From a virus, in IMG/VR virus record IMGVR_UViG_3300032893_000056, positions 1 to 56,411 of that record: a DNA stretch of 56,411 nucleotides. One strand, written 5' to 3'. Position numbers and translations under genes: made by a program. The notes under the pieces are model-generated. The model searched no databases. It was not told where the DNA came from and saw only the letters and a list, made by a program, of their open reading frames with translations. Shown in pieces: positions 250 to 56,233 of the stretch. The first letter of the stretch is position 1; each line of letters begins with the position of its first letter.

Positions 250-2139
250 TTAGAGCCATTCGCAAGCGCCACTCGAACAGGCGTATTCTTGCGAACCATT
301 AGTTGTATCTTCAGCTTTCTCATAGCCATCGAACATATTCCAATCGATCGATGGGAAGTTCGCGGCTAATTGTTGATAGTCCGCTTCGGAAAGATCCTGA
401 TATGGAGCCTGTTGATATACGTGATCAGAATGCGGAAGGAACGATACACCACCCACATCATCCAAGTGCTTATATACCCAAGCACCAACATCCATCCATT
501 CATGTTCTTTTACGTAAACAGTAATACTAGGATTGTGTTCACACCAATGACGCTTGAAAGATAGATAATGTTCCAACTGTTCGATTGCACCACGGTCCGA
601 TCGGACCACGCTACCAGTTGGAGAAGCCACTGGAAAACTGAACACAAGATTAGAAGGATTAGTAACGTCAGTTTCACAAGGCACACCTTGGTCTTTTAGA
701 AAAGTAGCAAGAGGGTCTTTAACATCAGCCCGAACAGTGCGAATATAGTACGGATTGTGACGAGGATGAATCCCACTAGCAGAATCAACAAGCTGGCTAA
801 CCGTACCAGATGGCTTGATCGTTGTGATGGCTGCACTGGCAGGAATCTGTAGCTTCTCCGCCCAATCCTTGTTAGTCGATACCGCATGATTCTTCATCCG
901 TGTAAGCGTATCAGCCAACCCATCGCTATTGCTCCCGTTAAGAAGGCTGTTATCCATAATACCAGTAAGGCTGACACCAAGCAGACGCTCTTCTTCAGCA
1001 TTTATCCTCCATGCTTTTCGGAGGTATCGGAAGTCTGTGAGAGTGCTTTGAAAGGTTCCGAGAATCGTAGCGAGTTCAACCTTGTTGCACAGCGTCTCGC
1101 AAGTATCTCCTGCTCGTACAATGACTTCGCTAAGATTGCAAAATCCGTTGGGTCGAAGGATGATTTCTCCGCAAGGGTTCGTTCCAAAATCCCAATCCAC
1201 ATCTCGACGTCCTGTAGCGCCCGCTTGGCGCTTCGCGCTAACCCGATTAAAAATTCCTCGCTCACCACTCTTTGATTCATATAGTGCGTGCCACTCCTTC
1301 ATCCAAATTCCAACATCAGGTCGTTCTGTGTATGCTACGCTGTTGTTAGCCAGTGCTCGATGGCCACTACCTTCCCACCAAGCACCGTTTTTAGCGTTAC
1401 GCATCCGTTCGTCAGTAAGGTTACTGAGAGAGATAAGAGCACTCCGACGAACACCACCAACCACGACAATCTGAGCAATCTTACATACCAGATCATGACA
1501 CTCCAGAGAGTTTAGTTTTCGGCCCACGGCCTGTTTGAATAGTTGCTTAGTGAAGTTGAATAGGTCCACCAAAGGCGCAGGACCACTTGCTCTGCCTCCG
1601 AAAGTTTTAAGGCGCGCTCCCGCAGGTCGGACTCGGCTAACATCAAGTATCGGAGATTGTCCTGAATATAGGAGGGAGATGAGTTGGCGAAAAGCGCTAG
1701 CCCAACCTTGCTTAGAATCCGCGACAACAATAACTGTTTCTGAATCGTAAATTCGTTCTGGAACTTCTGGAAGTTTATTGATGTACTGTCGTTCGACACT
1801 GAAGCCTACTCCTGTACCATTCATAAGAATAAACATACACTCATCAAAAGCCTTGGGATCATCGATGGGCAGATAACTACAATTGTATCCAGCAATGTTA
1901 TCTCGTTCAAGGGCTGGGCCTGCCACCATCAGTGCCCGCATGCTGGGGACTACATCCAGATTGTAGATCCCCTCAAACACTCGCTGGTAGGGGAACACAT
2001 CCCCATATCGATTAGCCCAGAAGTCACAGTATCGTTGGACTGTTTCGGACCATCGCTCCCGACGACCCTCCTTCTCTAGCCAGCGTGCGTACCTCGATTT
2101 ATATACGTATTCCTGCAAATCTGTAGAGAAATCACTCAC
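250..2139 (-). CDS. nrdJ: Class II (adenosylcobalamin-dependent) ribonucleoside-triphosphate reductase
   Basis: Monomeric B12-dependent reductase converting ribonucleoside triphosphates to deoxyribonucleotides with a cobalamin-derived thiyl radical. By analogy with the Lactobacillus leichmannii enzyme, the key cysteines are visible: C87 (NCSYLP) and C334 (FCNLSEV) as the redox pair, C323 (NPCGEI) as the thiyl radical site with the family's 11-residue spacing, and a C-terminal CSSGAC pair (C621/C626) that re-reduces the active site. At 629 aa it is shorter than the ~740 aa Lactobacillus enzyme, as phage forms often are. The start is a GTG overlapping the stop of the upstream acidic gene. It would supply dNTPs without needing oxygen or a second subunit, provided the host supplies B12. 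A second, diverged copy lies at 53983-55887. Confidence 0.95.
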   Translation of the reverse strand: MSDFSTDLQEYVYKSRYARWLEKEGRRERWSETVQRYCDFWANRYGDVFPYQRVFEGIYNLDVVPSMRALMVAGPALERDNIAGYNCSYLPIDDPKAFDECMFILMNGTGVGFSVERQYINKLPEVPERIYDSETVIVVADSKQGWASAFRQLISLLYSGQSPILDVSRVRPAGARLKTFGGRASGPAPLVDLFNFTKQLFKQAVGRKLNSLECHDLVCKIAQIVVVGGVRRSALISLSNLTDERMRNAKNGAWWEGSGHRALANNSVAYTERPDVGIWMKEWHALYESKSGERGIFNRVSAKRQAGATGRRDVDWDFGTNPCGEIILRPNGFCNLSEVIVRAGDTCETLCNKVELATILGTFQSTLTDFRYLRKAWRINAEEERLLGVSLTGIMDNSLLNGSNSDGLADTLTRMKNHAVSTNKDWAEKLQIPASAAITTIKPSGTVSQLVDSASGIHPRHNPYYIRTVRADVKDPLATFLKDQGVPCETDVTNPSNLVFSFPVASPTGSVVRSDRGAIEQLEHYLSFKRHWCEHNPSITVYVKEHEWMDVGAWVYKHLDDVGGVSFLPHSDHVYQQAPYQDLSEADYQQLAANFPSIDWNMFDGYEKAEDTTNGSQEYACSSGACEWL

Positions 2140-2318
2140 TCGTAATCTTCCTCCCCCTCATCGAAATATTCAAGCAATACATCGTATCGCTCCTCAATAT
2201 AATCTTCTAGTACCATAACCAATTCCGTACTTGTTACATTTAGCAACTCAATTAAAGTCAACTCATCCAATTGAGTAAGCGACGCTTTTAGTTCTTCTAG
2301 AGTTCTTTCATTAATCAT
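2136..2318 (-). CDS. Small acidic phage protein, 60 aa
   Basis: Begins MINERTLEEL and is rich in Glu, Asp and Leu, apparently helical. The ATG at 2318 lies inside the end of the upstream endonuclease gene, and its stop overlaps the nrdJ start, so the three genes are translationally coupled. A homologue occupies the right end of the window (56233-56411). Short proteins opening with MINERT recur in phages, but the function is unknown. Confidence 0.75.
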   Translation of the reverse strand: MINERTLEELKASLTQLDELTLIELLNVTSTELVMVLEDYIEERYDVLLEYFDEGEEDYE

Positions 2319-2727
2319 ATGTATTAATATATTTAATTGCTGCATTCATGATTGTGCTATCTTCTCGAAAGTAACCCAGCCCTACATTGCAAAAAGTACA
2401 AAGTAAGCCCCGGACGTTCCCCGTAGTATGATTGTGATCAACACATACTTTTGAATCTTCAAACAATTGGTTACAAATGGCACACCGATTTTCTTGTGCT
2501 TGGAGCAACTTATGGTATTGTTCGAGTGTTAATCCATAACGAACCTTTAAATTGCGTTTGAAAATATATTCTGGTGTCTCATTGACTTCTCGCCATTTTC
2601 TATTGGCTTCATTAATTTTCTGTGGATTTCGTTTATAATACTTCCGATTGTATTCATTTCGGCACGATTGGCACCACCGTTGTGATGGTGCTCGTGGGTT
2701 TATTTTACATTTTGAACAGAGACTCAT
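2311..2727 (-). CDS. Endonuclease VII-like HNH nuclease, 138 aa
   Basis: Recombination endonuclease VII family. An N-terminal zinc-binding pair (CSKCK, CQSC) is followed by the signature CAIC ... VDHNHTTG ... RGLLCTFCN, which combines two CxxC zinc ligands with the catalytic DHNH. Such genes are usually free-standing mobile endonucleases in phages, although T4 endonuclease VII itself resolves DNA junctions. Overlaps of 4 bases upstream and 8 downstream show tight insertion. In the right-end homologous locus a different endonuclease VII-like gene occupies a different slot, which suggests mobility. Confidence 0.88.
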   Translation of the reverse strand: MSLCSKCKINPRAPSQRWCQSCRNEYNRKYYKRNPQKINEANRKWREVNETPEYIFKRNLKVRYGLTLEQYHKLLQAQENRCAICNQLFEDSKVCVDHNHTTGNVRGLLCTFCNVGLGYFREDSTIMNAAIKYINTYD

Positions 2728-7212: not shown

Positions 7213-7944
7213 TTACGAAAAGCAAGCATCTCGTGTAATTTTTTCCATGTTCTTGAGATCCATGCCGAACTTCACCTCACAGTCGAGGGGAACGACCCAC
7301 TCGTAACCGAAACATCTCTTGATGTTGGCGATCAGATCATCGAACACTTCGTAAAACAAGCGTGCGATCTGGGAAATATACTGAGCCTCCGCATCGATCA
7401 CAATCGAATCGTGTACGGTGGAAACAACCAAGGCTGGGATTCCACTTGATTTCAGTCGCCGGAAGAAGCTGATCCGGGCAATCATCATAACATCCGCACC
7501 TGTGCCCTGCACCGGGTAGTTCGTCAGAGTTGTCCATGGTATCTTTATCTCTCCCGATGGGCTACGACCAAGGTTGATGATCCACTGCCTTCCACTCGGA
7601 CCCTCCAATGGCCTTCCGGCAACGACACTGTTGCACCATTGTTTGTGGCACTTATCGATTCCGGAATACTTGGAGTAGAACTTTTCTCCGATTCCATCCC
7701 AGAACTTTGGATCGTTAGAGACGTGAGTAAAGGCTGGATCGTGCGCAAATGACCAACCACTTCCTCGATAGATTGTGCGGAAGAGATAGATCTTTGCAAT
7801 GAGGCGAGAAGGCAGATCAAATGATGCTTGGTTGAGACTATGTGTATCCGCTCCTGCAAGGACTTCAGCAATTCCTGTTGAGTCACGACTCATCTCCAGT
7901 AGTACGCGCCACTCAAGCTGGCTTGCGTCCGCTTGTATTAGCAA
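7213..7944 (-). CDS. DNA polymerase I (family A), C-terminal part of split gene
   Basis: Carries the polymerase palm and fingers: motif A DASQLEWRVLLEMS at the very start, motif B LIAKIYLFRTIYRGSG around residue 47, and motif C VHDSIV near residue 180. The start is a TTG three bases after the stop of a 61-residue gene. Everything upstream of motif A (exonuclease and thumb) is in the separate gene at 8261-9397. Together they would form one complete T7-like polymerase of about 620 residues. Whether the halves assemble as two chains or the gap is removed from RNA is unresolved. Confidence 0.9.
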   Translation of the reverse strand: MLIQADASQLEWRVLLEMSRDSTGIAEVLAGADTHSLNQASFDLPSRLIAKIYLFRTIYRGSGWSFAHDPAFTHVSNDPKFWDGIGEKFYSKYSGIDKCHKQWCNSVVAGRPLEGPSGRQWIINLGRSPSGEIKIPWTTLTNYPVQGTGADVMMIARISFFRRLKSSGIPALVVSTVHDSIVIDAEAQYISQIARLFYEVFDDLIANIKRCFGYEWVVPLDCEVKFGMDLKNMEKITRDACFS

Positions 7945-7947
7945 TAA

Positions 7948-8133
7948 TTAGACTCCGATAATGCCGTTATCATCTCCCTTAATCTCTCGAAGTTTGATCT
8001 GCAACTTCAATTCATCGAAAGTTTCCTTCGGAAGACCTTGAACAAAATCATAAAAATTATCACTGTACTCAAGAAGAACGAACATATCGTTCAACATCTT
8101 CTCTTCATTTAGCCGGGATTTGCTGCGAGCCAT
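7948..8133 (-). CDS. Small helical protein between the polymerase halves, 61 aa
   Basis: Begins MARSKSRLNEEKMLNDMF and includes a stretch FYDFVQGLPKETFDELKLQI. The composition and helical pattern look like a true protein, and the ATG overlaps the end of the preceding small gene. It ends three bases before the polymerase C-part starts. No family recognised. It is one of two genes filling the interruption in the polymerase. Confidence 0.6.
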   Translation of the reverse strand: MARSKSRLNEEKMLNDMFVLLEYSDNFYDFVQGLPKETFDELKLQIKLREIKGDDNGIIGV

Positions 8134-8264
8134 GTGGTGATCTCCGCATTTTGTTCATTAAGATTTTGAATCATCGCCAACAGATTGGTAATGTCCGCCT
8201 GATAGGCAGCCAATTGCTGTTGGTTATTCTGAAGGAGTTGTTGTAGTACTTGTTGAATTGTCAA
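8109..8264 (-). CDS. Gln-rich coiled-coil peptide between the polymerase halves, 51 aa
   Basis: An open frame beginning TTG ACA at 8264, overlapping the TGA stop of the polymerase N-part in the compact TTGA arrangement. The product is Gln/Asn/Leu-rich (MTIQQVLQQLLQNNQQQ) with a heptad-like pattern through LLAMIQNLNEQNAEI. Start-stop coupling on both sides argues for translation. No family recognised. Association with the split polymerase is only a suggestion. Confidence 0.55.
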   Translation of the reverse strand: MTIQQVLQQLLQNNQQQLAAYQADITNLLAMIQNLNEQNAEITTWLAANPG

Positions 8265-9397
8265 TCGTTATACCTCGAAATGAAAAGGTCGTTTGCTTCA
8301 CTATCTAGATTCTGGAGATTCGGGCCACTGGAACTGAGACGCCCGGTGGCTACGGTCACTTGATTAAATTGGCCGTGGAGATATCCCGGTTCCCAATTCT
8401 GTTCCGCTGCTTTCTTGACCAGTCCTTCATATGTCTTGGACAACAGAGTCTCCAGTCGTGTTTGCTTTTGGATAAGCTCGATAATCCTCCGAGTCTTTCG
8501 TGATGGTTTCAGCTTCAGTAGGGTATCAGCATTGGTAGCGAAGTACCCCTCCTTCTTAAGTGCTGACCCACGGAGAGGTTCAACCAGCCGAGGCAATTGG
8601 TGCTCTACTTTATTTACTTTGAAGCGAGGTTCACCAATTCGTTTGCCTGACTTGTAATAACCGATACACTCCCTTACTTCTTCAACAATCGTCCCACCGT
8701 AAAGAAAGGCAGACAGATGGTCCCCAGAAGAGAAGTTAATAGGCACATCAGGATAAACTCCGTGAAGTTCGTTGGTGATTTCTGATATCTCGTTTTTAAT
8801 CTCCTCAGCACGGCTCCTACAGAGTTCCTCATTATACCTGATGCCGTTCCACTCCATCTCCTCCAGTACCAACAGGTCCAAACACATCAGCCGCACTAGT
8901 CGCTTTGATGTTGGCGGCATATGTTCCATCTGGTTGTAGTACAAATTCAAGGTTTGTTGGGCATCCGTGGATGCATAGGATGAAAGTATCTCCCACGGAA
9001 TATCCTCCGTCTGAATTCCCTTCGCCCAATACTCCTTCGCCACTACGTCTTCCTTGTGTCCAAGCCCATATTTGACTAAAGACTCCTCCAGTGAGGGATA
9101 CTTCCATGTTTGATTGCTCCTTACAAATTCAGCTAGCTGGCAGTCCCAGACTCGTTTGTCCCCCCACTCGACTCCAAGTTTTCTAAGGACGTGTGCATCA
9201 TATTTGAAATTGAAACCAACGAGAAGGTCAGCTTGTCTAATTCGTTCTGCAAGTTCCGCAAGACTATCCGGGCTTGTCTTAACTGCTCCTGCACCACTTT
9301 GATCTGCCCAACTCCAGCATACATTTTTGAATCGTCGATCAAATGGGGCCCCAACATTATAGGTATTATTTTCCGTATCCAAAGCTAGAACTTTCAA
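8261..9397 (-). CDS. DNA polymerase I (family A), N-terminal part of split gene
   Basis: Contains the 3'-5' exonuclease (exo I: VLALDTENNTYN; exo II: LVGFNFKYDAHVL; exo III region: SSYASTDAQQT) and the start of the polymerase domain up to TGRLSSSGPNLQNLDSEAND, then stops before motif A. The start is placed at TTG 9397, which overlaps the HNH stop (TTGA) and has GGAGG upstream; this gives MKVLALDTENNT, parallel to the N-terminus of the HNH gene. Motif A and the rest follow in the gene at 7213-7944. Confidence 0.9.
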   Translation of the reverse strand: MKVLALDTENNTYNVGAPFDRRFKNVCWSWADQSGAGAVKTSPDSLAELAERIRQADLLVGFNFKYDAHVLRKLGVEWGDKRVWDCQLAEFVRSNQTWKYPSLEESLVKYGLGHKEDVVAKEYWAKGIQTEDIPWEILSSYASTDAQQTLNLYYNQMEHMPPTSKRLVRLMCLDLLVLEEMEWNGIRYNEELCRSRAEEIKNEISEITNELHGVYPDVPINFSSGDHLSAFLYGGTIVEEVRECIGYYKSGKRIGEPRFKVNKVEHQLPRLVEPLRGSALKKEGYFATNADTLLKLKPSRKTRRIIELIQKQTRLETLLSKTYEGLVKKAAEQNWEPGYLHGQFNQVTVATGRLSSSGPNLQNLDSEANDLFISRYND

Positions 9398-9822
9398 ATA
9401 CGCCTCCAAGATTTTCGGAGTTTGATAGCACTAACATTGGCTTTGGTAATTCCATACTCTTTGGCAATCTCCAATTGTGGTCGAACATCCTCACGTATCC
9501 GCAGTACCTGTTCTGCCGTTAACTTTGGTGTTCCATTTCGAGCTGCCCTCCCTTTACGTACCATATCCTCCATATTGTCTTTGTGTGTTCCTATGAACAA
9601 ATGAGCAATCTCATAACACGCGGGATTATCACAATGATGGCAAATTTTCATGCCTGTTGGAATAGGTCCGTTATATTTCATCCACTCCAATCTATGAACT
9701 CCTTGTGGACGACCCTCATATTGTTTCATTCCATAGCCGTCTTTGTCCTTATATCCCGCCCATTCTTTACACGGAACTGTATTCCACGTGTTATTCTCGG
9801 TATCGATCGCTAATACGTTCAC
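9394..9822 (-). CDS. HNH homing-type endonuclease carrying a polymerase-like N-terminus, 142 aa
   Basis: The first ~15 residues (MNVLAIDTENNTWNT) copy the exo I start of the DNA polymerase encoded immediately downstream. The remainder is a typical phage HNH nuclease: HRLEWMKYNGPIP, CHHCDNPACYEIAHLFIGT, KDNMEDMVRKGR, then a C-terminal helix-turn-helix-like segment (LTAEQVLRIREDV ... EIAKEYGITKANVSAI). It appears to have inserted at, or arrived with, the 5' end of a polymerase gene. The shared codons differ at many synonymous positions, so this is not a recent local duplication. Confidence 0.88.
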   Translation of the reverse strand: MNVLAIDTENNTWNTVPCKEWAGYKDKDGYGMKQYEGRPQGVHRLEWMKYNGPIPTGMKICHHCDNPACYEIAHLFIGTHKDNMEDMVRKGRAARNGTPKLTAEQVLRIREDVRPQLEIAKEYGITKANVSAIKLRKSWRRI

Positions 9823-53982: not shown

Positions 53983-55887
53983 TTAGAGCCATTCACACGC
54001 ACCGGAGGTGCATGAGAGTTCTTGGGCTCCGTTAGTTGTATCTTCAGCTTTCTCATAACCATCGAACATGTTCCAATCGATCGACGGGAAGTTCGCGGCT
54101 AATTGTTGATAGTCCGCTTCGGAAATATCTTGGTAAGGAGCTTGCTGATATACGTGCTCGCTGTGCGGAAGGAATGATACACCACCCACATCATCCAAGT
54201 GCTTATATACCCAAGCGCCAACATCCATCCATTCATTTTCTTTTACGTACACAGTAATAGAAGGATTGTGTTCACACCAATGACGCTTAAAAAGAAGGTA
54301 ATGGTCAAGCTGTTCAATGGCAGACCGATCACTCCGCACAAGGCTGCCGCTAGGAGAACGGACAGGAAAACTGAACACAAGGTTCGAAGCGTTAGTAACG
54401 TCCGGTTCACAAGGAACCCCTTGGTCTTTTAGAAAAGTAGCAAGAGGGTCTTTAACATCAGCACGAACAGTTCTGATATAATACGGATTATGACGCGGAT
54501 GGATGCCACTAGCAGAATCAACAAGCTGACTGACAGTACCAGAAGGCTTAACGGTAGTGATAGCAGCACTCTGAGGAATACCCAAGGTGGCTGCCCATTG
54601 TTTGTTGGTTTCAACCGCATGATTCTTCATACGCTCCAATGTATCAGCGAGCAGACGCCCACTGTGATCACTAACGCTACCGTTAAGAATGGGATTGTCC
54701 ATGATGCCAGTAAGGCTAACACCCAGGAGACGCTCTTCTTCAGCATTTACCCTCCAAGCTTTTCGGAGGTATCGGAAGTCGGTGAGAGTTGATTGAAAGG
54801 TTCCGAGAATCGTAGCGAGTTCGACTTTGCTGCACAAAGTCTCGACTGTATCTCCAGCTCGTACAATAACCTCGCTAAGATTGCAGAAGCCATTGGGTCG
54901 TAGGATGATCTCACCGCAAGGGTTCGTTCCAAACTCCCAATCCAATTCTCTACGTCCTGTAGAGCCTGCTTGGCGCTTTGCAGATACGCGATTAAAAATG
55001 CCTCGCTCACCGGACTTACTTTCATATAGTGCGTGCCACTCCTTCATAAAGATACCGATATCTGGCTTTTCCGTGTAGGCTACGCTGTTATTAGCCAGAG
55101 CACGGTGACCACTAGACTCCCACCAAGCGCCGTTCTTGGCGTTACGCATACGCTCGTCTGTGAGGTTAGACAGGCTAATAAGAGCACTCCGACGCACACC
55201 CCCAACAACCACGATCTGAGCAATCTTGCAAACAAGGTCATGACATTCCAGAGAGTTTAGCTTTCGTCCGACTGCATTCCTAAAAAGATTGACTGTGAAG
55301 CTAAATAGGTCAATAAGGGGTGCAGGTCCGGATGCTCGTCCACCAAACGTTTTAAGTCGAGCCCCCGCAGGTCGTACACGAGACGTATCCCACTTGGCCA
55401 CCTGACCAGCATATAGTAGGGAAACCAACTGCCGGAAAGCAGAAGCCCATCCCTGTTTAGAATCTGCGACAACGATAACAGTATCCGAGTTATGGAGCGT
55501 GTCCGGGATTTCCGGTAGCTTGTTGATGTATTGTCGTTCGACACTGAATCCTACTCCTGTTCCGTTCATTAATACGAACATAACTTCTGAGAATGCTGCT
55601 TGATCGTCAATGGGCAGATAGGAACAGTTATATCCTGCGATATTATCCCGTTCCAAGGCAGGTCCTGCCGTCATTAGTGCGCGCATGCTAGGAACTACGT
55701 CAAGATTATAAATACCCTCGAAGACCCTTTGGTATGGGAATACGTCCCCATACCGGCCTGCCCAGAAGTCACAGTAACGGGTAACGGTCTCGACCCACGT
55801 TTCTCGACGACCCTCTTGCTGAAGCCATCTGGCGTAGCGACTACGAAATACATACTCTTGGAGATCGGTGTTAAAGTGTTTCGTCAT
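53983..55887 (-). CDS. nrdJ: Class II ribonucleoside-triphosphate reductase, second diverged copy
   Basis: 634 residues, five longer than the left copy, with the same cysteines: NCSYLP, NPCGEI, FCNLSEV and the C-terminal CTSGAC (C626/C631). Most differences from the left copy are conservative, and both frames are intact. It starts with ATG, whereas the left copy starts with GTG, and overlaps the endonuclease VII-like gene by 17 bases instead of the acidic gene. It is either an allele from a second strain or a duplicate. Confidence 0.95.
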   Translation of the reverse strand: MTKHFNTDLQEYVFRSRYARWLQQEGRRETWVETVTRYCDFWAGRYGDVFPYQRVFEGIYNLDVVPSMRALMTAGPALERDNIAGYNCSYLPIDDQAAFSEVMFVLMNGTGVGFSVERQYINKLPEIPDTLHNSDTVIVVADSKQGWASAFRQLVSLLYAGQVAKWDTSRVRPAGARLKTFGGRASGPAPLIDLFSFTVNLFRNAVGRKLNSLECHDLVCKIAQIVVVGGVRRSALISLSNLTDERMRNAKNGAWWESSGHRALANNSVAYTEKPDIGIFMKEWHALYESKSGERGIFNRVSAKRQAGSTGRRELDWEFGTNPCGEIILRPNGFCNLSEVIVRAGDTVETLCSKVELATILGTFQSTLTDFRYLRKAWRVNAEEERLLGVSLTGIMDNPILNGSVSDHSGRLLADTLERMKNHAVETNKQWAATLGIPQSAAITTVKPSGTVSQLVDSASGIHPRHNPYYIRTVRADVKDPLATFLKDQGVPCEPDVTNASNLVFSFPVRSPSGSLVRSDRSAIEQLDHYLLFKRHWCEHNPSITVYVKENEWMDVGAWVYKHLDDVGGVSFLPHSEHVYQQAPYQDISEADYQQLAANFPSIDWNMFDGYEKAEDTTNGAQELSCTSGACEWL

Positions 55888-56233
55888 TATTCCTTTTTAG
55901 ATACTCAATGATTCGTTCAAAAGTTTCAATCTTGTCGTAGAACATTCCTAGGCCTAAGTTACATTGGCGACAGAGAAGTCCTCTCACTTTACCTGAAGTA
56001 TGACAATGATCAATATCCGCAGTCTCATTTATTTCTTTAAGGCACAGAGCACACTTGTGGTCTTGATCTTCTAACATCACATTTAAGCTTTCGGGGGTGA
56101 TTCCGAACTTCTTTTTACGGTAATAAATCTTTTGTCGCTCTAGATAAGCTGCTTTGTTCTTATGATAGCGGGCCCGTTGTTTAGCATTTTGATCCTCTCG
56201 GTTAGCGGCCCACCAGTCCTTGTTATACCCCAT
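55871..56233 (-). CDS. Endonuclease VII-like HNH nuclease inserted between acidic gene and nrdJ, 120 aa
   Basis: Signature CALC ... DIDHCHTSGKVRGLLCRQCN, with a basic N-terminal helix (RARYHKNKAAYLERQKIYYRKK). It starts in TAATG overlap with the acidic gene and ends inside nrdJ. The family matches the gene at 2311-2727 but the two are clearly different proteins, with divergent N-termini and different insertion sites. Confidence 0.88.
   Translation of the reverse strand: MGYNKDWWAANREDQNAKQRARYHKNKAAYLERQKIYYRKKKFGITPESLNVMLEDQDHKCALCLKEINETADIDHCHTSGKVRGLLCRQCNLGLGMFYDKIETFERIIEYLKRNNDETL

Follow-up and report, generated by a model that had tools for sequence, protein, structure and literature searches.

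The window analysed here, namely the whole 56,411-nt stretch of the virus record IMGVR_UViG_3300032893_000056, encodes a family A DNA polymerase in two adjacent frames, an N chain and a C chain, with two small genes, g51 and g61, lying between them (Table 1). The frames and coordinates given in an earlier sequence-only reading were verified: the N chain stops at 8261, the C chain starts at 7944 and two small frames occupy the interval. The N chain extends from a TTG at 9397 (the list of open reading frames had placed its start at the in-frame TTG 9409) to a TGA at 8261-8263 and ends in ..GRLSSSGPNLQNLDSEANDLFISRYND*, and the C chain extends from a TTG at 7944 to a TAA at 7213, its start reading TTG CTA ATA CAA GCG GAC GCA AGC (MLIQADAS).

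Table 1. Features of the window and of the polymerase loci of its relatives; positions are those of the sequence named in the second column
Feature	Sequence	Position	Strand	Remark
Ribonucleotide reductase gene	window	250-2139
HNH gene before ribonucleotide reductase	window	2311-2727
C chain	window	7213-7944	minus	motif A, fingers, motif C
Motif A catalytic aspartate codon	window	7927-7929	minus	C-chain residue 6; Taq D610
g61, 61-aa gap gene	window	7948-8133	minus	ATG start; overlaps g51 by 25 nt
Shine-Dalgarno-like GGAG	window	7953-7956	minus	8 nt before C-chain TTG
g51, 51-aa gap gene	window	8109-8264	minus	TTG start overlaps N-chain stop (TTGA)
Shine-Dalgarno-like GGAG	window	8142-8145	minus	8 nt before g61 ATG
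N chain	window	8261-9397	minus	3'-5' exonuclease, thumb, first palm segment to ISRYND
Shine-Dalgarno-like GAGG	window	8273-8276	minus	8 nt before g51 TTG
HNH endonuclease gene	window	9394-9822	minus
GGAGG	window	9403-9407	minus	before N-chain TTG 9397
Ribonucleotide reductase gene	window	53983-55887	minus
HNH gene before ribonucleotide reductase	window	55871-56233
Insert after LFR in motif B	L014	4257-5000
Insert after LFR in motif B	L085	2440-3185
Insert after LFR in motif B	L106	4267-5012
Insert after LFR in motif B	L128	2052-2589
Insert after LFR in motif B	L172	1503-2200
Insert at NYPV/QGTGAD	L103, L183
Insert at GRLSSSKP/NLQN	L071/L072
Broken motif A	L013, L018, L042, L045, L046, L051, L056, L062, L069, L074, L075, L077, L078, L080, L093, L116, L124, L137, L140, L170, L183
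Break CTT[TAGCCC]GAA	L042, L062, L124, L183
Break CTT TAG CTT	L046
Break CTG TAA CTG	L137
Break CTT TAG CTC	L170
Break CTT[T]GAG	L075, L077
Break CTT[TA]GAG	L051, L074
Sigma70-like promoter	L116	3180-3275		in decayed C-start copy
Sigma70-like promoter	L137	7195-7270		in decayed C-start copy
Sigma70-like promoter	L140			in decayed C-start copy

The polymerase chains and the gap genes

The N chain contains the exonuclease motifs DTEN, NFKYD and YASTD and matches the PHROG and Pfam DNA polymerase profiles as well as DNA_pol_A_exo1, and the C chain contains motif A (QADASQLEWR), motif B (R-K-F-Y, in the fingers), NYPVQGTGAD and motif C (VHDSIV). The two cover complementary parts of the Pfam model DNA_pol_A (PF00476), positions 50-133 and 154-378, respectively, both above the cut-off. 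With the columns of motifs A, B and C and of RLSSxxPNLQN invariant, the two are confirmed to constitute together one family A DNA polymerase, and no second PolA was found in the record. In an alignment with the Taq polymerase the C-chain profile starts at residue 605 (LLVALDYSQ, with D610 as the motif A Asp) and the N chain ends just before it, thereby placing the break in the turn that precedes the motif A strand (Taq ~604/605). AlphaFold2 modelled the C chain alone as a palm-fingers fold (pLDDT 92.9), and Foldseek searches with this model recovered Pol theta and the Pol I of Bst, with query-normalized TM values of about 0.65-0.80, suggesting that the C chain is able to fold as a unit.

The start-stop coupling that had been proposed for the small frames holds for the N-chain/g51 and g51/g61 junctions, which overlap; the g61 and C-chain frames are close but adjoin without overlap, as the C-chain TTG begins 3 nt past the g61 stop. 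Neither small protein gave a usable match in Pfam or PHROGs. Homologues of g51 are nevertheless present in the polymerase gaps of the relatives L002, L031, L033 and L035, and those of g61 in the gaps of L002, L004, L031 and L035, with dN/dS of 0.04 for g51 against L002, where dS is saturated, and of about 0.2 for g61 against L002, L031 and L035. Both genes are thus under purifying selection, in agreement with the earlier view that the gap is coding. Recent horizontal transfer of g51, which has 88% amino acid identity in L002 vs 65-67% for the polymerase, was considered and rejected because its synonymous sites are as saturated as those of the polymerase.

At the other end of the N chain, the first 14 codons (MNVLAIDTENNTWN) of an HNH endonuclease gene repeat the polymerase N-terminus, and the N chain restarts past this gene with a recoded copy (LKVLALDTENNTYN) and a new GGAGG ahead of it; this segment is a homing endonuclease insertion with a regenerated gene start. 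HNH genes also precede each of two ribonucleotide reductase genes at the opposite ends of the record, whose proteins are 87% identical and whose DNA is 82% identical over 2 kb; the pair may be duplicates or else two variants located close to the ends.

The split point is conserved across relatives

Although no locus was recovered when viral contigs were first scanned with one N-chain sequence, tblastn and scans of sequence collections gathered 183 sequences, 166 of them scorable as split (159) or fused (7). Upon removal of identical copies 136 split loci were left, comprising 133 at the split point of the window and 3 of the ICP2 type. The N chains of split relatives are 38-66% identical to that of the window. 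The split point is identical in the 133 distinct relatives irrespective of what the gap contains, which, together with the conservation of both gap frames as proteins, shows that the split is more than a chance occurrence.

What lies around this point is highly variable. Over the 121 loci in which it was measured, the distance from the N-chain stop to the C-chain start extends from an overlap of 17 nt (-17 nt, in eight loci) to 3598 nt, with -1, 0 and 1 nt among the values in between, and all three frame relations between the chains occur (52/36/33). The frames overlap in 15 relatives, and the largest gap, 3.6 kb in one relative, has several genes inside it. In 111 of the 121 loci the C-chain start codon aligns to the first position, the chain nearly always beginning five residues ahead of the motif A Asp, and in 61 of the 121 the start is preceded by a Shine-Dalgarno-like motif (vs 12% in the background). 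Where the gap measures at least 60 nt, it contains an open reading frame of at least 40 aa in 94/97 loci. A single small three-helix family occupies the gap at about 65 loci, and the gaps of others contain genes of zinc-ribbon, helical or unrelated type. L007, which is among the relatives nearest to the window (65% and 64% identity), reads ..FISRFND TAA ATGCTTATC.., in frame and with a 0-nt gap (TAA-ATG), and like L016, L090 and other loci is split without any gap gene.

A broken frame is unusual for an essential enzyme and might mean that the polymerase gene is decaying or was misassembled, and that no working enzyme is produced here. We consider this scarcely credible, as every catalytic motif is retained, dN/dS is about 0.15 where calculable, the record has no other PolA, and the identical split is seen in the isolates MEP401, MEP402 and QDWS535 and in many assemblies.

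The intron reading of the gap

A split DNA polymerase was reported in 2023 in MEP401-type phages, with the question of an intron left open (PMC10580990). The Methylophilales phages MEP401 and MEP402 resemble the window in having homologous N (39-40%) and C (37-38%) chains and the same split point with an open reading frame in the gap, but in that study their gap is treated as a possible intron with an unassigned small frame, whereas the window, which belongs to another branch of the clade, has two other small genes. The closest isolate, Alcaligenes phage vB_Af_QDWS535 (UCR75322/UCR75321; 48% and 51%), shares the split point as well, but is gapless, the N-chain stop and C-chain start overlapping as TAATG.

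If the gap were a group I or another self-splicing intron, removal of 7942-8263 would restore a single polymerase chain. As the sequence-only reading had pointed out, such removal does join YND-LIQADAS in frame, with a T (U in the RNA) preceding the excised stretch and a G as its last base, though this is a weak criterion; moreover, real group I introns occur in the same genes of relatives. One of these, the insert in the C gene of L014, was recognized as Rfam Intron_gpI (E=3e-11) and serves as a positive control, indicating that true introns are recognizable in this gene family by the same method. Inserts in seven further relatives are similarly placed and have a clear HNH frame in all but one; of these eight inserts, the relaxed Rfam search covered that of L014. 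These polymerase-gene inserts begin with TAA or similar, and they interrupt codons of conserved motifs, never the junction at which the polymerase of the window is split. In the window, by contrast, Rfam gave no match at gathering thresholds, and a covariance search of 7800-8400 with E up to 10 yielded only chance matches at the level of snoRNAs, with no group I core (P3-P9) in the gap, so that the suggestion of a group I intron did not survive. Nor were continuous exons found in insert-free relatives, L007, L090 and L016 each keeping a stop and a start at the junction. Given the relatives with 0-nt or overlapping frames at the very point where another has 3.6 kb with several genes, gap genes that are kept as proteins, starts with their own ribosome-binding sites, and the lack of an Rfam match at a useful E-value alongside a positive control, the intron reading is refuted as far as sequence allows, and we regard it as very improbable.

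A probable two-chain polymerase

We therefore favour, with a probability of about 0.92, a polymerase whose single operon yields two polypeptides that assemble non-covalently into one enzyme. The preference of the sequence-only reading for two chains is sustained by the split conserved in 133 relatives, the independent starts, the complementary Pfam halves, the single PolA per genome, the coding gap genes and the want of an intron, all evident from the sequence. Translation would end at 8261, resume on the two coupled small genes and initiate once more at TTG 7944. The N chain, with the exonuclease, thumb and first palm strand, would then associate with the C chain, which brings the motif A palm strand, fingers and motif C, and the gap would be a tolerated site at which small genes arrive and leave. 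In relatives with no gap, low-level stop readthrough could additionally give some fused enzyme.

That the N and C chains assemble and are active we infer in part from comparable systems. In phage 25 the two halves of a split family B polymerase, 43A and 43B, co-purify and are active (PMC2988022), and T4-like 43A/43B and Aeh1 NrdA-a/NrdA-b are, like the window locus, essential enzymes in two chains, reported to be assembled and active (PMC2988022); they differ in being a family B polymerase and a ribonucleotide reductase, in their split sites and in having a homing endonuclease or an untranslated spacer. The window shares with such genes-in-pieces the two adjacent frames whose halves are jointly complete, and its gap has no homing endonuclease gene, which is found in some members of that group but not in all. 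By this analogy the window chains most likely assemble as 43A/43B of phage 25 do.

The earlier proposal also made the gap products extra subunits of the polymerase, and this part fared less well than its two chains. Dedicated third and fourth subunits joining both chains might be expected from the strong conservation of g51 and from a small three-helix family, A4, that is encoded at about 65 loci and almost only in this gap. However, g51 and g61 are both absent from L007, in which the halves abut as separate frames, and are hence not obligatory parts of the enzyme; L016, L090 and others are likewise split with no gap gene. Membership of g61 in the widespread A4 family, suggestive by eye, was not established (hhalign probability 5%), and the A4 fold found no match in the PDB. 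Dedicated subunits thus seem unlikely, but gap proteins may have a loosely associated accessory role, since a small helical family different from g51 and g61 fills the gap in most other relatives.

Origin of the split

In a maximum-likelihood tree of N plus C (92 taxa, 611 columns) the loci split at the point of the window (site A) are monophyletic (82/82, support 99), and the split dates back to the ancestor of a large clade of phages. The Vibrio phages ICP2, ICP2_2013_A_Haiti and VP41s3 resemble the window in encoding a family A polymerase in two frames with a gene or short spacer between them, but group with the fused L179/L181 (support 100) and then the fused L028 (96), and are split about 20 residues earlier (..PNLQNISN* / MSDIKRCIISRF..). 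Two independent splits in one linker would be the simplest reading of this tree, with later re-fusion as the alternative. The spacer of ICP2 holds the HNH gene 51 and that of ICP2_2013_A_Haiti is TAA GGAATTACT ATG, 9 nt in length. GenBank joins the ICP2 frames (L021, HQ641345 40112-42680) as one CDS around HNH gene 51; against this, the spacer of only 9 nt in ICP2_2013_A_Haiti indicates that the ICP2 polymerase too is probably made as two chains. With HNH genes occupying the gap in ICP2 and in nine relatives, and another at the N-chain start of the window, we are encouraged to infer that the split arose when a homing endonuclease gene inserted itself.

Broken motif A in relatives

The C frame of 21 relatives has a further interruption, of 1-10 nt, in or next to the Q-L-E-W of motif A (Table 1 lists the loci and several of the breaks, among others). 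The window lacks such a break, reading CAG CTT GAG TGG without a gap, and thus has no gene 60-like bypass cassette. A stop codon stands directly after the leader (usually ending DASQL) in 15 of the 21 (p about 5e-16 vs 3/64). Both sides of the break are under purifying selection, with pN/pS of 0.26 for the leader codons and dN/dS of about 0.1 for the downstream C frame. GGAGG precedes the C start in 18/21 broken vs 5/113 intact loci (p=4e-15), and one HNH/EndoVII-like family occupies the gap in 8/20 broken vs 0/117 intact loci (E<1e-5; p=5e-8); with the different HNH gene in the gap of L056, homing endonucleases are present at nine broken loci. Upstream of the endonuclease, L056, L062, L069, L137, L140 and L170 also have a first copy of the C start, which has decayed. 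Sigma70-like promoters (TTGACA/T, 17 nt, TATAAT or TATACT) observed in the decayed copies of L116, L137 and L140 could drive the endonuclease gene.

Sequencing or assembly error was rejected as the general cause, because the N and C chains of 144 loci are otherwise free of frameshifts and stops that lack an explanation, and because several of the variants turn up repeatedly in separate assemblies; the single homopolymer cases L018 and L116 could be errors. The broken-locus records searched have no second PolA, and pattern scans for further stop-led motif A loci returned only known ones, plus L184 and L191 in unrelated sequence.

The precedent is the T4 gene 39 - mobA - gene 60 locus, where a stop-led coding gap of 50 nt is bypassed by ribosomes (PMC2988022, PMC5009743). 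The relatives, about 20 in number, are alike in their split gene, gap endonuclease gene, strong new start and stop-led short gap near the downstream start, but differ in that their gaps measure 1-10 nt, lie within motif A at codon 10-12 and come in several variants. Ribosome skipping would best explain these sequences, and we lean slightly towards decoding of their motif A by frameshifting or short bypassing. In this view a homing endonuclease cassette introduced a strong new start followed by 9-12 codons, with DASQL usually at their end, and a gap of 1-10 nt, usually stop-led, e.g. CTT TAG CTT, CTG TAA CTG, CTT TGA G or CTT TAG CCC GAA. An intact motif A would result where ribosomes pass over this gap, which would also shield the phage from its own endonuclease. 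Loci without an endonuclease would need a separate account, such as endonuclease loss or protection against that of a competitor. If true, these loci would represent a family of stop-hops that occur in nature, akin to T4 gene 60 and built upon a polymerase that was split beforehand.

Implications

As the split had been published before for MEP401-type phages, the window adds a new case to a group already known, and comparison of the relatives answers the published question of whether or not an intron is involved (PMC10580990). It points to a replicative family A polymerase that is divided next to its catalytic aspartate and works as two chains throughout a phage clade, and offers a natural test bed for the small proteins of the gap and for the tolerance of a polymerase to splitting. 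Bypassing of the T4 gene 60 kind has long been presumed to have short counterparts, with 'stop-hops' described from synthetic constructs (NAR 2016 review, PMC5009743), and the stop-led gaps of the relatives would make this long-sought class testable.
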